This document shows, in pieces, positions 39,292-45,006 of a stretch of 64,000 bases of DNA. This DNA is from Gimesia fumaroli. Lineage in GTDB: Bacteria > Planctomycetota > Planctomycetia > Planctomycetales > Planctomycetaceae. The position numbers were made by a program, and so were the translations under genes. The DNA lies in the NCBI RefSeq assembly GCF_007754425.1, contig NZ_CP037452.1, positions 6,551,164 through 6,615,163 of the forward strand, read 5' to 3'. Each line of letters starts with the position of its first letter. Position 1 is the first letter of the stretch. The notes under the pieces are model-generated. The model saw only the letters and a program-made list of their open reading frames with translations. It had not been told where the DNA came from and ran no database searches.

Positions 39292-40179
39292 TCAGGAGCC
39301 TTCCTGGCAAAGATCAATAAAAAAGGCGGATGCGGTCCAGTGCTTGAACCACTGATGGAGCTGGTGGCCTAACTTGTCCGGTTCGATCAGGCCTGATTCG
39401 GCAACATCCATGATTGCTTCTCCTACCTGGCATCCCTCCTGTAGACGGGTTAGCAGGAGATACTCCGCGGGAGTTACCACCTCGCGACGTACAATAAAGT
39501 TGCGGCGTGTAATTGCCAGACAAGTTGTTTGCTGCTCAGGAATCGCTGGCGTATCTCCCTTTCTGACATCAGTAATGAATTCGTGGACGGGATATTGAAA
39601 TTCGACCAGCCGAAAACAGGGGGCCATCTTGAGCGTTAGCCCAGGCCAGTCTTCCGGCGCGATGGCATTTAAGGTCTCTGGTGTCAACAGCGTTTCCTGT
39701 TCGATGCCTGGGCCATCAAAGACTTCACTGTAAACGCGTTCCAGAGTTGCCAGTTCAATCAGAAAATCGGTCCAGTCGGCGTTTCCTCCTGGCTCTGCGG
39801 CAGGTTTGTGCTCTCTTAAAAACTGCGGAAACCGGGCTCCCAACTCTCCGAGGGTATAACTGGTAGAAGGATATGCCTGCAGATACTCCATGCAAAATAC
39901 ACCGAATGCCTGTGCCCCCATCGCTATCACCAAAGCGGGATACTCCTCGCTCAAACATTCAAGCAGACGTGCATAGTAAGCGTTGGCATAGATTCCGACT
40001 CGTTCCAGACTTGTCAGTTGACTGGAACAAGTAATCACAGTTTCCAACGCATCGGGGTCCAGCGGAATACTGCTTTGTGCTGCCTCCGAGGAGATACCGG
40101 CTTCGACGCCGCCAGGCCAGCTGATTACCGTTTGCATCCAATGCTGAATCTGTTCCAGATCGCGTGATTGACGGTTCAT
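39292..40179 (-). CDS. DUF2063 partner protein of the DUF692 enzyme (BufC-like)
   Basis: 295 residues, cytoplasmic. The N-terminal half carries the DUF2063 (putative DNA-binding/RiPP-recognition) pattern: [57 protein letters not shown]. The C-terminal half ([38 protein letters not shown]) matches the family as well. Its start overlaps the DUF692 stop by four bases, so both are made together. In bufferin and related clusters this protein is the partner that presents the Cys-rich precursor to the DUF692 (MNIO) enzyme. The role here is taken from that precedent. Confidence 0.85.
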
Positions 40180-41105
40180 TCGAATTCAGCCGTTATAAAT
40201 GAGGCCGGATGAGGAATCGCTGTGGGAGAAGTATCAGCAACCACCTCTTCTGAAGCGACTGGTTCGCTAGACGGCAGATGCGCATCCATATAGTTTCGTG
40301 CTTTCAGAACTTCCTGATGCACGTCAGGAAACGGTGGGATATCCGCGTCCCACTCAAGCAGTGTCGAGACACCACCAGTACGCTGGTGCATTAACTGAAA
40401 CAGGTTCCATACGGGATCGATTACCCGTCCGTTATGTGTATCAATTAAGTGTGTCCCACAATTCGTGTGCCCCGCGAGATGACATTGCACAATACGTTCA
40501 GCGGGGATAGCTTCGATGTATTCTACAGGATCAAATTCATGATTCACGCTGGAAACATACACGTTATTCACATCCAACAATAAACCGCAGTCGGCTTCTT
40601 CGGCCATGCGACAGACAAATTCAGATTCGCTCATTGTGGAATCCTGGAATTCGAGATAGCTACTCGGATTTTCCAGAACGAGAGGTCGCTCAAGTATTTC
40701 CTGCACAGTCTGAATGCGTTTGACAATATGAGCCAGTGTACTCTCATTATAAGGGATGGGTAACAGATCGTGTGTATTGCGTCCCGCCACTCCAGTCCAG
40801 CAGACATGGTCGGAAACCCAGCGCGCCTTGACCGACTCAGCCAGTGTTTTCAACTTCTGCAAGTAGTCGCGGTTCAACGGATCGGTGCTGCCAATCGACA
40901 GAGAAACGCCATGCATCACGATCGGATAGCGTTCGGCAATTTGCTCCAGCACATTCCGGGGCCGACCGGCCGAATCCATGAAGTTCTCTGAAATAATTTC
41001 AAACCAGTCCACTTCAGGCTGGTGTTCCAGAATGTGAGAGAAGTGTACGGTTCGCAGGCCCACTCCCAAACCCAGATTTTCATACCCGAGACGTGGTTTC
41101 AACAT
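40176..41105 (-). CDS. DUF692/MNIO multinuclear iron enzyme (BufB-like)
   Basis: 309 residues from the ATG at 41105, chosen because AGGAG lies nine bases upstream; the TTG at 41114 sits right after AGGAG and is too close. TIM-barrel MNIO family (DUF692, MbnB type). Putative metal ligands are all present: H65 in [10 protein letters not shown]99/H100 in SDHVCW, H112, E145 in LENPSSY, D178/N180/N181 in [11 protein letters not shown]209 and H213 in CHLAGHTN, D222/H224 in DTHNG, and E251 in EWDAD. These enzymes oxidatively modify Cys residues of peptides, for example to thiooxazoles or oxazolone-thioamide. The Cys-rich protein encoded just upstream is the obvious substrate. Confidence 0.92.
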
Positions 41106-41184
41106 AAGTGACAACTCCTATCCTGAGATCGACCTGGTTACCGAAAGGTCACAGGGATATTGCATTCTGGCTGACATGAAAAAA

Positions 41185-41220
41185 CAGGCTCCTTATCAAA
41201 TGGGTTGATAGAGGAGCCTG
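41185..41220 (-). terminator. Terminator-like hairpin between precursor and DUF692 genes
   Basis: CAGGCTCC (41185-41192) pairs with GGAGCCTG (41213-41220), and TATCAA (41194-41199) with TTGATA (41205-41210), separated by a T/GA internal loop. On the minus strand it is followed by TTTTTT-type sequence (complement of the A-run at 41179-41184). It lies 24 bases after the precursor stop and 80 bases before the DUF692 start, so it can act as a partial terminator that lowers enzyme relative to precursor. Confidence 0.75.
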
Positions 41221-41243
41221 ACTTCGATGTCTTGGATCAAAGG

Positions 41244-41759
41244 TTATTCCTTTTTTGCAGCGGGAGCAGGACCTACTTTTTTGCCTGCTTTTTCCATTGC
41301 TTTTTCAAACTCGGCGCGGGCCAGTTTCCAGGCGTCTTCCATCAATGGAATGTGACAAGATCCTTTTCCTTTGCAGGAGTTCATGCCGGGGTTTGTACCG
41401 CAGCCACCTTGCCCTTTGCATTCATTCGAACCGGCACAGGCGTGTTCTGCCACCGTAGCACAGGCTCCCAGACCAGCACAATCATTTTCCACACCGGCGT
41501 AGGTTCCTTTGCAGGTATTGAGACCACGACAGACATGAGGCTCTTTCATCAGCAGGCTGACATCCTTGTCGGCATCTCCAGCATGATCATGGTCATGCTC
41601 GTCCTTGGTCGAACTGCCTGCTTCTGCGTCTGTAGCAGGTGTCTTGGGAGCAGGCGGGGCCGGTTTTTGACAACCGGTCATCGAACCAGCCACCATTCCG
41701 CCAAACGCAGCAATGGTCAGTCGGTTAAAATCGCGTCGATTGATATCAGGCCGTTTCAT
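41244..41759 (-). CDS. Cys-rich bufferin-like precursor with Tat signal
   Basis: 171 residues. Signal: NRRDFNRL twin-arginine motif (R8, R9), a hydrophobic stretch and GSMTGC with Cys30, so a Tat-exported and possibly lipidated protein. Residues 53-60 are DEHDHDHA, a metal-binding-looking patch. The core (77-135) has nine Cys arranged as C-x-G-x3-C units: CRGLNTC (77-83), CAGLGAC (94-100), CAGSNEC (108-114), CKGQGGC (114-120) and CKGKGSC (129-135). A helical, Lys/Ala-rich tail ends the protein. The pattern resembles BufA2-type bufferin metallophore precursors. Strong ribosome-binding site GAGGT. Upstream of DUF692 and DUF2063 on the same strand; a role in binding copper or another thiophilic metal is inferred. 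Confidence 0.85.
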   Translation of the reverse strand: MKRPDINRRDFNRLTIAAFGGMVAGSMTGCQKPAPPAPKTPATDAEAGSSTKDEHDHDHAGDADKDVSLLMKEPHVCRGLNTCKGTYAGVENDCAGLGACATVAEHACAGSNECKGQGGCGTNPGMNSCKGKGSCHIPLMEDAWKLARAEFEKAMEKAGKKVGPAPAAKKE

Positions 41760-42091
41760 GGATTACCTCAGAGTTTCTATCAAAGGATTAATGAAGGTTG
41801 AATTCCAGCATGAGACTAAACAGAGATTCCCTTGTGTTCTGTGAGTTATCTCACATTTCCAGCAGAATTTAAACTGCGGATTCTCAATTTCAACCAAAAT
41901 TTCCGTAGCTTTTTGCAGCAATTTCCGATTGTTAACTCATTTGATTTTCTATGGTTTGCATAGTAGCTGCCCCTGAAACAGAACCGCACCAAGAGGAGTT
42001 GTACGTTAACTCACAGATTCAAAATTCAGGACACTCGATAATAGATCCAGACGCAAGCCGCATTCTTTATTCATGGAGGATCACAGGAATC
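41760..42091. promoter_or_regulatory. Divergent promoter region between precursor and DUF547 genes
   Basis: 332 bases between divergent genes. It contains the CRP-like palindrome at 41840-41855. GGAGGA at 42075-42080 and AGGA closer in precede the DUF547 start. The AT-rich stretch 41880-41945 could hold the plus-strand promoter. Confidence 0.5.
41840..41855. promoter_or_regulatory. CRP/FNR-family-like palindrome upstream of the Cys-rich gene
   Basis: TGTGAGTTATCTCACA has the exact CRP-type half sites TGTGA-N6-TCACA and a fully symmetric outer six bases (TGTGAG/CTCACA). Its centre is about 88 bases upstream of the Cys-rich precursor start, suitable for activation. Which regulator binds is unknown. 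Confidence 0.5.
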
Positions 42092-42931
42092 ATGTCAGGA
42101 TTGAAATCGCTCTCAATGTCAGTCGTGCGGGCACTTGGAATCATGTTGCTCAGTCTGCCTCAAAGTCATCGTGGAGAAGCTGCAGAAGTGATCGGGCAAC
42201 ACTGGCCTGCCGGCCAACAGCTCTCTATGTCACAGATCGATCACAGCAGCTTTGACCGGTTGTTAAAAAAGTACGTCGATACAGAAGGCATGGTTAATTA
42301 TGGCGCGTGGAAAGCATCGCAAACAGATCGGCGTGCCTTGCAGAATTATCTAAAGCTGCTCAGTCGGGCAAACCCGCGTGCAGTAGCACCGAAACAGGCT
42401 CGCCTCGCTTTCTGGATCAATGCCTACAATGCCGTGACATTAGAAGGAATCATGCAGGTTTATCCCACAACCAGCATTCGCAACCATACGGCGAAAGTGT
42501 TCGGATTTAACATCTGGGATGATCTGCCCCTGAATGTCGGCGGAAAAAAGTACTCTTTAAACCAAATAGAACACGAAATTTTACGTAAGATGAATGAGCC
42601 CCGTATTCACTTTGCAATTGTCTGTGCTTCCATCGGCTGTCCAAAGCTGAGAAACGAAGCCTATACAACGGATAAAGTTGATGCACAATTAACTGCCAAC
42701 GCCATCGATTTCTTTCAGCACAATAAACATTTTCAGATCAAGCCAACTCAAACAACCGTATATCTTAGTTCCATCCTGGACTGGTTCGCGACTGATTTCG
42801 GATCAACGCAATCAGAACAGCTTCGCTATATTGCTAAATTTGCCCCGGAAGCATCACGATCTTTTTTGAAAAGTCCGAATGTGACCGTGAAGTATCTCGA
42901 TTACAACTGGGGGCTGAATCGTCAGCAATAA
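42092..42931 (+). CDS. Secreted DUF547 protein
   Basis: 279 residues from the ATG at 42092, chosen because AGGA and GGAGGA precede it and the protein then begins with a signal peptide (MSVVRALGIMLLSL, cleavage near GEA). The frame is open to 41951 without support. DUF547 motifs are clear: ARLAFWINAYNAVTLEGIMQ, KKYSLNQIEHEILR, HFAIVCASIGCPKLRNEAY, and the ending FLKSPNVTVKYLDYNWGLN. The family has a cysteine-protease/transglutaminase-like core (Cys in SIGCPKL), with no firmly assigned role. Divergent from the bufferin-type cluster. Confidence 0.87.
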   Translation: MSGLKSLSMSVVRALGIMLLSLPQSHRGEAAEVIGQHWPAGQQLSMSQIDHSSFDRLLKKYVDTEGMVNYGAWKASQTDRRALQNYLKLLSRANPRAVAPKQARLAFWINAYNAVTLEGIMQVYPTTSIRNHTAKVFGFNIWDDLPLNVGGKKYSLNQIEHEILRKMNEPRIHFAIVCASIGCPKLRNEAYTTDKVDAQLTANAIDFFQHNKHFQIKPTQTTVYLSSILDWFATDFGSTQSEQLRYIAKFAPEASRSFLKSPNVTVKYLDYNWGLNRQQ

Positions 42932-43168: not shown

Positions 43169-43981
43169 ATGCGTGCCAGACACTATCTTGTTTTCTCACT
43201 CAGTTTAATTTTCATACAGTCACTCTCCTCATATGTGCAGGGAGAAGAAATCCATTGGCGAACCAATCTAAAACAGGCAGCTCAACAGGCACGAGCTGAA
43301 AATAAGGCCATGTTGATTCAAATTGGCGCGACCTGGTGTGGGTTCTGCCACAAAATGGAAAAAGAGACTTACAAAGATCCAAAAGTAATCAAACACGTCA
43401 ATTCCTGTTTCATTCCGATTCGTGTTGACGCTGATCAGAATGCCGAGCTCGTCGAAGCCATCGGCGTTGCCGGGTTACCTACCACTGCCATTATCACTCC
43501 TCAACTGAAGATCGTGAAAAAGATTTCAGGCTATGTTGCTGCTCCGGAAATGGAAGGGCATCTTAATAAAATTTGCCTGGCAACTCACGAACAGGAAGCA
43601 TCCCCTCGTTCCAAAGAGCCTATCAAAAAGATGAGCGAAAAAAAGGTGACGACGGAATTTGCCTTCAAGGGAATTTGCCTGGTCAGCATGCTGGACGAGC
43701 AAGAGTTGGTTGAAGGGGCACCTGAATTTTCGTCTGAATTTAAAGGACGTAACATCTGTTTTGCTTCGATCGAGCACAAACAGAAATTCGATTCCAATCC
43801 GGATCGCTATTGGCCTGCCTTTGAAGGGAACTGCCGTGTATCCCAGCTGGATCAAAACCAATCAGTAGAAGGCGATCCACATGCAGGTGGCGTCTATCGG
43901 GAAAAACTGGTCTTCTTCTCTTCCGCCGCAGAACGGGATCGGTTTTCTTCCAACCCTTCCTACTATCTGCTACAGAAATAA
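43169..43981 (+). CDS. Periplasmic thioredoxin-fold protein with two YHS-like modules
   Basis: 270 residues with a signal peptide (about 1-25). Thioredoxin_7/DUF255-like domain about 28-140 with active site WCGFC (C57, C60) and cis-Pro in VAGLPTTAII. Two YHS-like modules follow: about 168-215 (FKGICLVSMLDEQELVEG, FDSNPDRYWP) and about 217-268 (FEGNCRVSQLDQNQSVEGDP, FSSNPSYYL). Each has a single Cys at the start in place of the CxxC of standard YHS modules. AAGGGA precedes the ATG. It converges with the CxxC-YHS gene, with which it shares the module type. Likely acts on thiols or metals outside the cytoplasm; substrate unknown. Confidence 0.83.
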   Translation: MRARHYLVFSLSLIFIQSLSSYVQGEEIHWRTNLKQAAQQARAENKAMLIQIGATWCGFCHKMEKETYKDPKVIKHVNSCFIPIRVDADQNAELVEAIGVAGLPTTAIITPQLKIVKKISGYVAAPEMEGHLNKICLATHEQEASPRSKEPIKKMSEKKVTTEFAFKGICLVSMLDEQELVEGAPEFSSEFKGRNICFASIEHKQKFDSNPDRYWPAFEGNCRVSQLDQNQSVEGDPHAGGVYREKLVFFSSAAERDRFSSNPSYYLLQK

Positions 43982-44109: not shown

Positions 44110-45006
44110 CTACTGAAGCTTTTCAATGAACTGCGGTTCCAGCCAGACAAATTTGCCTTGTTGTGCAATTTGCTTACCTTTCACGCTGACCTTCAGACTC
44201 TCAAAACGCTTCTTGTAAAGACTGGGGTGTGAATCGTGAGCCCCCTCGATCACATAAATCTTGCCGTCGCCGCTTTTTACAGCCAGCCCTAACGTGTTGG
44301 GATCTTTTTTGGGGTGAACGCCATATTCACAGGCAGCACAACCGGTTGTCCCTTTAATAGAAACCAGTTGAGAGGCAGGAGTTGTTGTGCTGCTTGTTTT
44401 TTGAGCTCCTGCTTTTTTACCGACGTATTTAGCAGGGTTGGACTGAAATTTCTGCATCACAGTTTCACTAGGAAACTGATAACGCTTGCCTTTGTAGATC
44501 GCGGTGAATTCCGGTTTGCCGGGAACATCTTTCCCGCCATCGATTTTGCACACAATGCATTTCCCGTCGCAAGCCAGATCTACATCGGCATATTTCTGTG
44601 GCGATTGATCAAAAACAGACTTGATCTGAGTATTTGGGAAGAGGAAAACCCGTCCCTGATAAAAACTCACATGATCAATCTTACCAGGATTACGCACGCC
44701 ATCATGATGAGCAAAACAGACAGAGCAATCGCCGTTCAACGCGGGAACATACTTTGCCGGGTTGGCGACAAACACATTTTTAACCTCCTCAGAAGGGAAC
44801 AGATAGGTCTGGCCGTCATATACGACGGAATGTTCTGCGCTCCCTTTAACAACTTTCTGACCTTTCACCAGGCAGACGGCACAATTGCCATCAAGCGCAA
44901 CAGGTGCTTGTTTCGCCTTCTGTTTTTCTTTGGCATCGAGTCCCTGATTAAAAAAAGCAAGGGATGCCAGCAAGGCGGCGGTCATTACGAATCGGGTTAA
45001 CTTCAT
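44110..45006 (-). CDS. Secreted protein with three CxxC YHS-like repeats and a CxxC tail domain
   Basis: 298 residues, signal peptide about 1-25. Three repeats of about 52 residues share [LC]-x-G-x-C-x-V-C, then [VSI]-x-Y-x-G-x-x-[YF]-x-F-P-[SN] and F-x-x-[NS]-P-x-K-Y: CAVC (42-45), CSVC (94-97) and CIVC (150-153, with an extra C146). The second Cys pair of a standard YHS domain is replaced by FPS/FPN. A fourth domain (about 215-298) begins with TGCAACEYGVHP (223-226) and looks unlike YHS. AGGAGA gives a strong ribosome-binding site. The repeats suggest a four-site metal or redox protein outside the cytoplasm. I cannot name the metal. Confidence 0.83.
   Translation of the reverse strand: MKLTRFVMTAALLASLAFFNQGLDAKEKQKAKQAPVALDGNCAVCLVKGQKVVKGSAEHSVVYDGQTYLFPSEEVKNVFVANPAKYVPALNGDCSVCFAHHDGVRNPGKIDHVSFYQGRVFLFPNTQIKSVFDQSPQKYADVDLACDGKCIVCKIDGGKDVPGKPEFTAIYKGKRYQFPSETVMQKFQSNPAKYVGKKAGAQKTSSTTTPASQLVSIKGTTGCAACEYGVHPKKDPNTLGLAVKSGDGKIYVIEGAHDSHPSLYKKRFESLKVSVKGKQIAQQGKFVWLEPQFIEKLQ

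Follow-up and report, generated by a model that had tools for sequence, protein, structure and literature searches.

A conserved bufABC-type operon in Gimesia fumaroli

In a stretch of 64,000 nucleotides (nt) from Gimesia fumaroli (contig NZ_CP037452.1; hereafter called the window, whose positions serve as coordinates throughout), positions 39292 to 41759 hold three minus-strand genes that, read from the DNA, follow each other in the order bufA, bufB, and bufC, i.e., precursor, MNIO, and DUF2063 protein, as in bufABC-type operons. This operon is real and conserved, and it is a variant of the bufferin (captophorin) systems whose point of interest is a signal of the twin-arginine translocation (Tat) type. 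The bufA-like precursor (41244..41759) has 171 residues with nine core cysteines and is recognized by its sequence, by a weak match to the BufA2 family, and by relatives that lie upstream of MNIO genes. The MNIO (DUF692) encoded by bufB (40176..41105) passes the cut-offs of PF05114 (371 bits; cut-off, 25) and of the NCBIfam model MNIO_BufB (364 bits; cut-off, 310), and its best match among solved structures is 3bww. The bufC gene (39292..40179) encodes a DUF2063 protein with an NGO1945_C domain, which is of the type of the recognition elements (RRE) of ribosomally synthesized and posttranslationally modified peptides (RiPPs). This PME-type 1 partner passes the cut-offs of PF09836 (56.6 bits; cut-off, 27.2) and PF22106 (32.8 bits; cut-off, 27), while its match to the NCBIfam model HvfC, at 56.5 bits, stays under the cut-off of 142; a comparison with the PDB returned nothing at an E value of ≤1. 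No signal peptide was recognized by eye in BufB or BufC. With enzyme and partner above their family cut-offs, the planctomycete bufferin-like system that a first-pass annotation of this DNA had proposed stands, as do, from the DNA, its 171-residue precursor with nine core cysteines in five C-x-G-x3-C units upstream of a DUF692 gene and the four-base overlap of bufB and bufC (ATGA). The same annotation had reported the ligand residues of the MNIO to be present; this holds for the site-3 set, the only set checked, for which the motifs DVNN and DTH were found. Via the alignment with 3bww, these motifs appear to match N175, D242, and H244, the site-3 residues reported for HvfB (PMC13419390), and further histidine and glutamate residues of the MNIO align with 3bww at the level of the alignment, not residue by residue. 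The open reading frame (ORF) tool began the MNIO at a TTG at 41114 (ORF 40176-41114), whereas the ATG at 41105, preceded by AGGAG and located 138 nt from the bufA stop, appears to be the likelier start.

To describe the distribution of this arrangement, we scanned species genomes with the MNIO and retained 80 loci, the best 80 of 169 relatives (L-numbers are the labels of fetched loci); the nearest enzymes belong to six loci at 84 to 87% identity, three of them from Gimesia. In 66 of the 80 loci (69 ORFs), an ORF that is rich in cysteine and has two or more C-x-G-x3-C units ends within 1.5 kb upstream of the MNIO start or just inside it, and 62 of 80 have an ORF from the DUF2063 cluster; L077 has a divergent Cys-rich ORF by its MNIO. 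The genomes behind 12 of the 14 loci that lack a precursor by this rule were followed up, and every one of them encodes a long-form precursor elsewhere, on a separate stretch. In G708, which is among these 12, a linked precursor-MNIO-DUF2063 cluster is present as well; it lies next to merR and merT, and its DUF2063 gene is cut by the end of the locus. Clustering of 614 ORFs, an uncurated and in part spurious set in which the MNIO ORF itself was missed in 12 loci, identified A, B, and C as the sole genes that recur on the operon strand in over 8 of the 80 loci, with neither DoxX nor any other gene exceeding this number.

Co-occurrence extends beyond these loci. A profile of the precursor, scanned against 391 Planctomycetota genomes that are each at least 85% complete, gave 37 strong matches in 34 genomes, where strong means at least 140 bits, a cut chosen once the gap from 141.5 down to 78 bits had become apparent. 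Thirty-three of the 37 share the strand of a BufB-like MNIO and lie 45 to 215 nt upstream of its matched stretch, and a BufB-like MNIO is encoded in all 34 precursor-bearing genomes compared with 82 of the 391 genomes overall. The joint occurrence of precursor and DUF692 in other planctomycetes, whose absence would have spoken against the first-pass annotation, was thus borne out. Among the weaker matches, 34 of the 38 tabulated rows were fetched, and three of the four left out match mainly over signal columns. Since 6 of the 36 strong and 3 of the 34 weak proteins fetched match a named locus exactly in the final 90 residues, these samples and the named loci overlap.

The nine core cysteines of BufA (residues 77, 83, 94, 100, 108, 114, 120, 129, and 135) form five C-x-G-x3-C units (residues 77 to 135; 41355..41531), two of which have Cys114 in common, and the tenth cysteine, residue 30, stands at a lipobox position. 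For comparison, we aligned the window protein with 49 ORFs hand-picked as long forms from the 69, omitting near-copies and any forms that lacked tail or signal; the twin arginines were no selection criterion. Nine core cysteines are present in 43 of these 50 rows. Mean pairwise identity amounts to 0.63 in the core, 0.52 in the C-terminal tail (W..AR..FE..M, residues 139 to 166; 41262..41345), 0.50 in the hydrophobic part of the signal (h-region) without RRxF, and 0.17 in the spacer. The Lys/Ala-rich tail pointed out in the first-pass annotation is therefore a conserved element, with residues 141 to 157 modeled as a helix in an AlphaFold prediction that is otherwise poor (mean predicted local distance difference test [pLDDT] score, 54.5), and a rule for this tail was passed by 34 of 36 strong matches, the exceptions being L165 and L171. 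L171 is a long-form gene without one core cysteine and the tail tryptophan, has an in-frame stop in its profile match, and is perhaps decaying. The His/Asp patch DEHDHDH (residues 53 to 59; 41583..41603), which sits in the variable spacer and had been named as a distinguishing feature, was dropped as a family trait, as HDH occurs in only 7 of the 50 members and is lineage specific.

A terminator-like hairpin followed by a T-run separates bufA from bufB (41179..41220; -20.8 kcal/mol). A stem with T-run at ≤-18 kcal/mol occurs at this place in 34 of 62 loci, compared with a mean of 2.6 and a maximum of 7 in 20 dinucleotide-shuffled sets and with 3 of 61 stretches of equal length upstream of bufA. 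This rule replaced a first one at -9 kcal/mol, which was too loose (40 of 62 loci versus 16 to 26 in six shuffles). A built-in terminator scan found 5 sites versus 2.9 expected, the hairpin after bufA not being among them, and a scan for σ70 promoters, which found 2 versus 3.0 expected by shuffling, was disregarded. The hairpin suggests an attenuator that would make the precursor exceed the enzyme.

Twin-arginine motif, lipobox, and h-region of the signal

The signal region of BufA (residues 1 to 30; 41670..41759), delimited by its sequence and by regional conservation, ends in the lipobox-type Cys30 (SMTGC), and residues 7 to 30 read NRRDFNRLTIAAFGGMVAGSMTGC. It contains the twin-arginine motif RRDF (residues 8 to 11; 41727..41738), of which both arginines and the phenylalanine are invariant, so that RRxF is found in all 50 aligned long forms. 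Followed by a hydrophobic stretch, RRxF occurs in 60 of the 69 precursor ORFs upstream of an MNIO versus 1 of the 575 remaining ORFs at these loci (11 with the looser RRx[FLIVM]), a comparison set that is uncurated and includes 126 ORFs with a signal-like N terminus. Of the nine precursors without RRxF, four have no visible signal (L060, L063, L085, and L087); the other five (L079, L082, L083, L084, and L086) are short or 12-Cys forms, and their signals are Sec or lipoprotein-like. In the genome scan, all 36 strong matches fetched have the twin arginines and 35 have RRxF, with RREL in L170; L151 (RRDF) was not caught by the automatic Tat rule. The weaker matches, mostly tail-less 12-Cys forms, have RRxF in 7 of 34 cases, a count that leaves out L181 (RRGL) and L198 (RRSI), which the rule flagged. 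Canonical BufA2 precursors scored above the family cut-off in 18 of 299 Pseudomonadota genomes, and none of the 22 ORFs obtained from them has RRxF before the core, with no start codon assumed. The twin arginines had first been flagged in L106 (KRRL) and, owing to overextended N termini, in L107 and L112, after which the starts were chosen by eye; the recount used no start positions.

A twin-arginine motif ahead of a hydrophobic stretch, together with a TatC encoded in the genome, gives BufA the features of a Tat substrate, and the lipobox-type cysteine after the h-region gives it those of a bacterial lipoprotein. We infer that BufA is a Tat-targeted protein, which in this genome bears a lipobox. 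A lipobox cysteine is present in 27 of the 50 aligned members by a loose rule and in 31 of the 69 precursor ORFs by a stricter one. Peak hydrophobicity averages 1.76 in the long forms, compared with 2.08 in canonical BufA2 and 1.96 in background signals. Neither the Tat signal with its lipobox, nor the leader-like conservation of the signal, nor the hairpin between bufA and bufB had been part of the first-pass annotation.

The h-region itself (NRLTIAAFGGMVAGSMTG, residues 12 to 29; 41673..41726) is the proposed leader: it is far better conserved than the spacer and resembles that of Sec-type short forms. With a position matrix built from the long-form h-region, the five short Sec-type relatives that the MNIO had brought to light, three of which are near-copies, each outscored all 114 background signals. 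The profile scan, whose profile includes signal columns, contributed 27 short forms without RRxF, of which 24 scored above the 95th percentile of the background and 15 above all of it; the average was 3.3 versus -22 for letter-shuffled windows, which were not rescanned over positions. The three below the 95th percentile, all of them counted, are L192, which has no signal, and L191 and L206, for which the script picked the wrong stretch. Just four short forms (L192, L198, L201, and L209) were matched outside the signal columns, and three of these exceed the 95th percentile. Four further Tat-type signals gave a divided picture, with L071 and L075 scoring high and L081 and L077 not. For HvfA, the signal is reported to be needed for full modification, with less than one modification per peptide in its absence (PMC13419390), which makes it plausible by analogy that the h-region doubles as a leader read by BufBC.

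Four relatives (L063, L085, L087, and L192) have a like core and a W..AR..F tail with no discernible signal peptide, so that the signal cannot serve as leader in every member. Their hosts are Acidobacteria, an actinomycete, Acanthopleuribacter, and one planctomycete. L063 and L087 have a DUF2063 partner despite the lack of a visible signal, which runs against the published link between signal peptides and PME-type 1 partners. L085 also has, close to its signal-less precursor, a gene for a ferritin-like protein (PF12902; L085:5312-6979), and a similar-looking protein is found at L087:2136-2867.

Relation to known bufferin families

The profile search against bufferin families that the first-pass annotation had suggested yielded BufA2 as the only NCBIfam match of BufA at an E value of ≤1, at 27 bits versus a cut-off of 60; in Pfam, the same threshold returned just DUF7640, SUEL_Lectin, and SspO, all under their cut-offs. 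Membership in Buf1 was rejected because the DUF2282 profile was not matched in Pfam, in agreement with the earlier remark that DUF2282-type motifs are not obvious. Among the 50 aligned members, the BufA2 model matches 40 at an E value of ≤0.001, and none passes the cut-off, the best being L054 with 48.5 bits. The 12-Cys relatives straddle this cut-off, with L082 (65.2 bits) and L084 (61.4 bits) passing and L075 (50.8 bits) and L071 (44.3 bits) failing, and they form a bridge between the long forms and BufA2. Judged by sequence, BufA is related to Buf2/BufA2, not to DUF2282, and is distinct enough to form its own subfamily, as had been surmised.

With Buf2/BufA2 (Buf_6/12Cys; NF050166) and the accompanying BufB (NF050167) and BufC, the window operon shares the A-B-C order, a related C-x-G-x-N-x-C core, a BufB-type MNIO, and a PME-type 1 partner (DUF2063 plus RRE type). 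In contrast to the 6 or 12 conserved cysteines reported for that family in a 2025 survey of MNIOs (PMC12452194), the planctomycete form mostly has nine core cysteines; it also differs in its conserved C-terminal W..AR..FE tail, in the low BufA2 score of the window protein, and in a Tat-type motif, assigned by a motif rule and not by SignalP, in place of a Sec signal. According to that survey, in which SignalP 6 was used, bufferin signals are Sec dependent, with about 16% lipoprotein signals in Buf2. Contrary to the first-pass annotation, length does not set the window precursor apart, since the survey already lists Buf2 precursors of 51 to 367 residues.

The enzymes were compared in a quickly built tree of 99 MNIOs, with 35 of its 96 inner branches open and a warning from the tool about some long branches that meet. 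The 17 MNIOs that belong to canonical BufA2 loci fall outside a branch that unites the other 82 with a Shimodaira-Hasegawa-like approximate likelihood ratio test (SH-aLRT) value of 100. Placed on this tree, the Tat label (60 rows) requires 6 changes versus 22.7 for shuffled labels, and Tat and Sec are mixed in the short-form branch.

Three other systems invite comparison. The Buf1 (DUF2282) bufferin of Caulobacter vibrioides likewise joins a signal-bearing Cys precursor with an MNIO and a DUF2063 partner; unlike it, the window precursor has no DUF2282 match, and no sigma factor, NrsF, or DoxX was found in the five neighboring ORFs scanned. HvfA/oxazolin and fontiphorin (Buf_EGKCG captophorins) share the MNIO and the RRE partner, and the HvfA signal is reported to work like a leader (PMC13419390), as proposed for the window system; BufA, in contrast, is without EGKCG repeats, and its partner matches HvfC below the cut-off. 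DAG-RiPPs such as DybA resemble BufA as MNIO substrates with a lipoprotein signal and differ in their ChrH-like enzyme; their recognition is reported to proceed via a C-terminal motif, lipoprotein-type bufferins are predicted in the same source, and the word “Tat” is absent from its main text (PMC12636315). Still another architecture is seen in the planctomycete precursors L202 and L204, which lie upstream of a BufB-like MNIO and have repeated Cys units parted by Lys-rich stretches.

Proposed route of modification and export, and its alternatives

We consider it probable that the locus is a bufferin-type (captophorin) RiPP operon with a Tat-targeted, lipobox-bearing product whose cysteines would be oxidized in the cytoplasm before export by Tat and metal buffering. 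BufA would be made in excess over the enzyme, since a terminator-like hairpin follows bufA. BufC would bind the precursor via the conserved h-region, and perhaps also via the C-terminal tail, and BufB would oxidize the core cysteines in the cytoplasm, most likely to 5-thiooxazoles by analogy with those reported for characterized MNIO-PME1 products (PMC13097082). The finished BufA would then be exported by Tat and lipidated at Cys30, with lipid anchoring where a lipobox exists, and would act outside the cytoplasm as a buffer for copper or another soft metal. Beyond this locus, we lean slightly toward a RiPP family that is natively Tat routed, whose members would have their cysteines modified, and perhaps be folded or loaded with metal, in the cytoplasm ahead of export. 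Its signal would have two layers, twin arginines for Tat and the h-region as leader for BufBC, and switches between Tat and Sec would keep the leader layer.

The Tat pathway moves proteins that are already folded. For this reason, a Tat signal would solve the problem of premature Sec export, which some mechanism must prevent if signal-bearing precursors are to be modified before they leave; masking has been speculated (PMC12452194). Relatives that have similar h-regions but carry either Sec or Tat signals offer a natural pair for separating modification from export, and annotators gain a group of planctomycete precursors that the present NCBIfam model scores under its cut-off. The claim that a Tat-routed bufferin is new has its sole basis in literature searches, in which MNIO was not found together with twin-arginine or with Tat and signal peptide. 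The main text of the 2025 survey contains neither “Tat” nor “Planctomycet,” and the long form may stand in its Table S2 (PMC12452194).

Several observations weigh against the proposed Tat-routed, metal-buffering product. Every long form scores below the BufA2 cut-off (best, 48.5 bits), the structure model of BufA is poor (mean pLDDT, 54.5), and the Tat call comes from our own motif and hydrophobicity rule, not from SignalP. The signal columns of the profile favor like signals among the 27 short forms that it found, and none of the 22 canonical BufA2 signals scores above the best background h-region, so that the h-region motif is not supported in canonical BufA2. Under the stricter rule, 28 of 62 loci show no such hairpin. 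Finally, no copper gene was recognized among the five neighboring ORFs scanned, and the linked precursor-MNIO-DUF2063 cluster of L138 lies beside MerR and MerT/HMA genes.

This last neighborhood points to mercury or a broader metal role. The metal might not be copper but mercury or another soft metal; alternatively, the system might act in redox or thiol stress. This reading, possible if doubtful, agrees with the proposed route in everything except the metal. In its favor, several loci encode a thioredoxin-like protein with a weak YHS match close to bufA, and MerC-bufferin fusions are published (PMC12452194); however, the mer neighborhood is seen at one locus, and characterized relatives are reported generally to bind copper (PMC13097082). 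Rather unlikely, in our judgment, is an ordinary divergent Buf2/BufA2 bufferin that is exported by Sec and whose twin arginines are merely part of the leader read by BufC. Although the BufA2 homology of 40 of the 50 members, the two 12-Cys relatives above the cut-off (L082 and L084), and the published Sec route of bufferins argue for it, the twin arginines and phenylalanine are invariant in the long forms and absent from Sec-type relatives. Since these relatives keep a like h-region without the arginines, the arginines do not simply follow the h-region motif; moreover, the long-form h-region is less hydrophobic than that of canonical BufA2. That BufA is an unmodified metallothionein-like lipoprotein, with the MNIO acting on something else, would explain why the precursor lies apart from the MNIO locus in several genomes but is highly improbable given the adjacency in 33 of 37 matches, the co-occurrence in 34 of 34 genomes, and a BufB-type enzyme with a DUF2063 partner.

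Around the operon, the window encodes a thioredoxin-like (DsbH) protein with a subthreshold YHS match (43169-43981) and a protein with YHS domains (44110-45006). The gene for the thioredoxin-like protein is again found close to bufA in L008, L010 to L013, L022, and L037 and at the unlinked precursor locus L127. A DUF547 gene (41951-42931) is divergent from bufA, and relatives of it are present in the bufA loci L009, L021, L022, L024, and L038. Elsewhere in the same genome, a second MNIO (L002:954-3040; G000:C1:241729-242496) adjoins a 247-residue protein with a Cys/Gly-rich tail and a 204-residue protein, neither of which matched anything in Pfam or NCBIfam at an E value of ≤0.01; the pair is possibly another MNIO substrate with an unrecognized partner.

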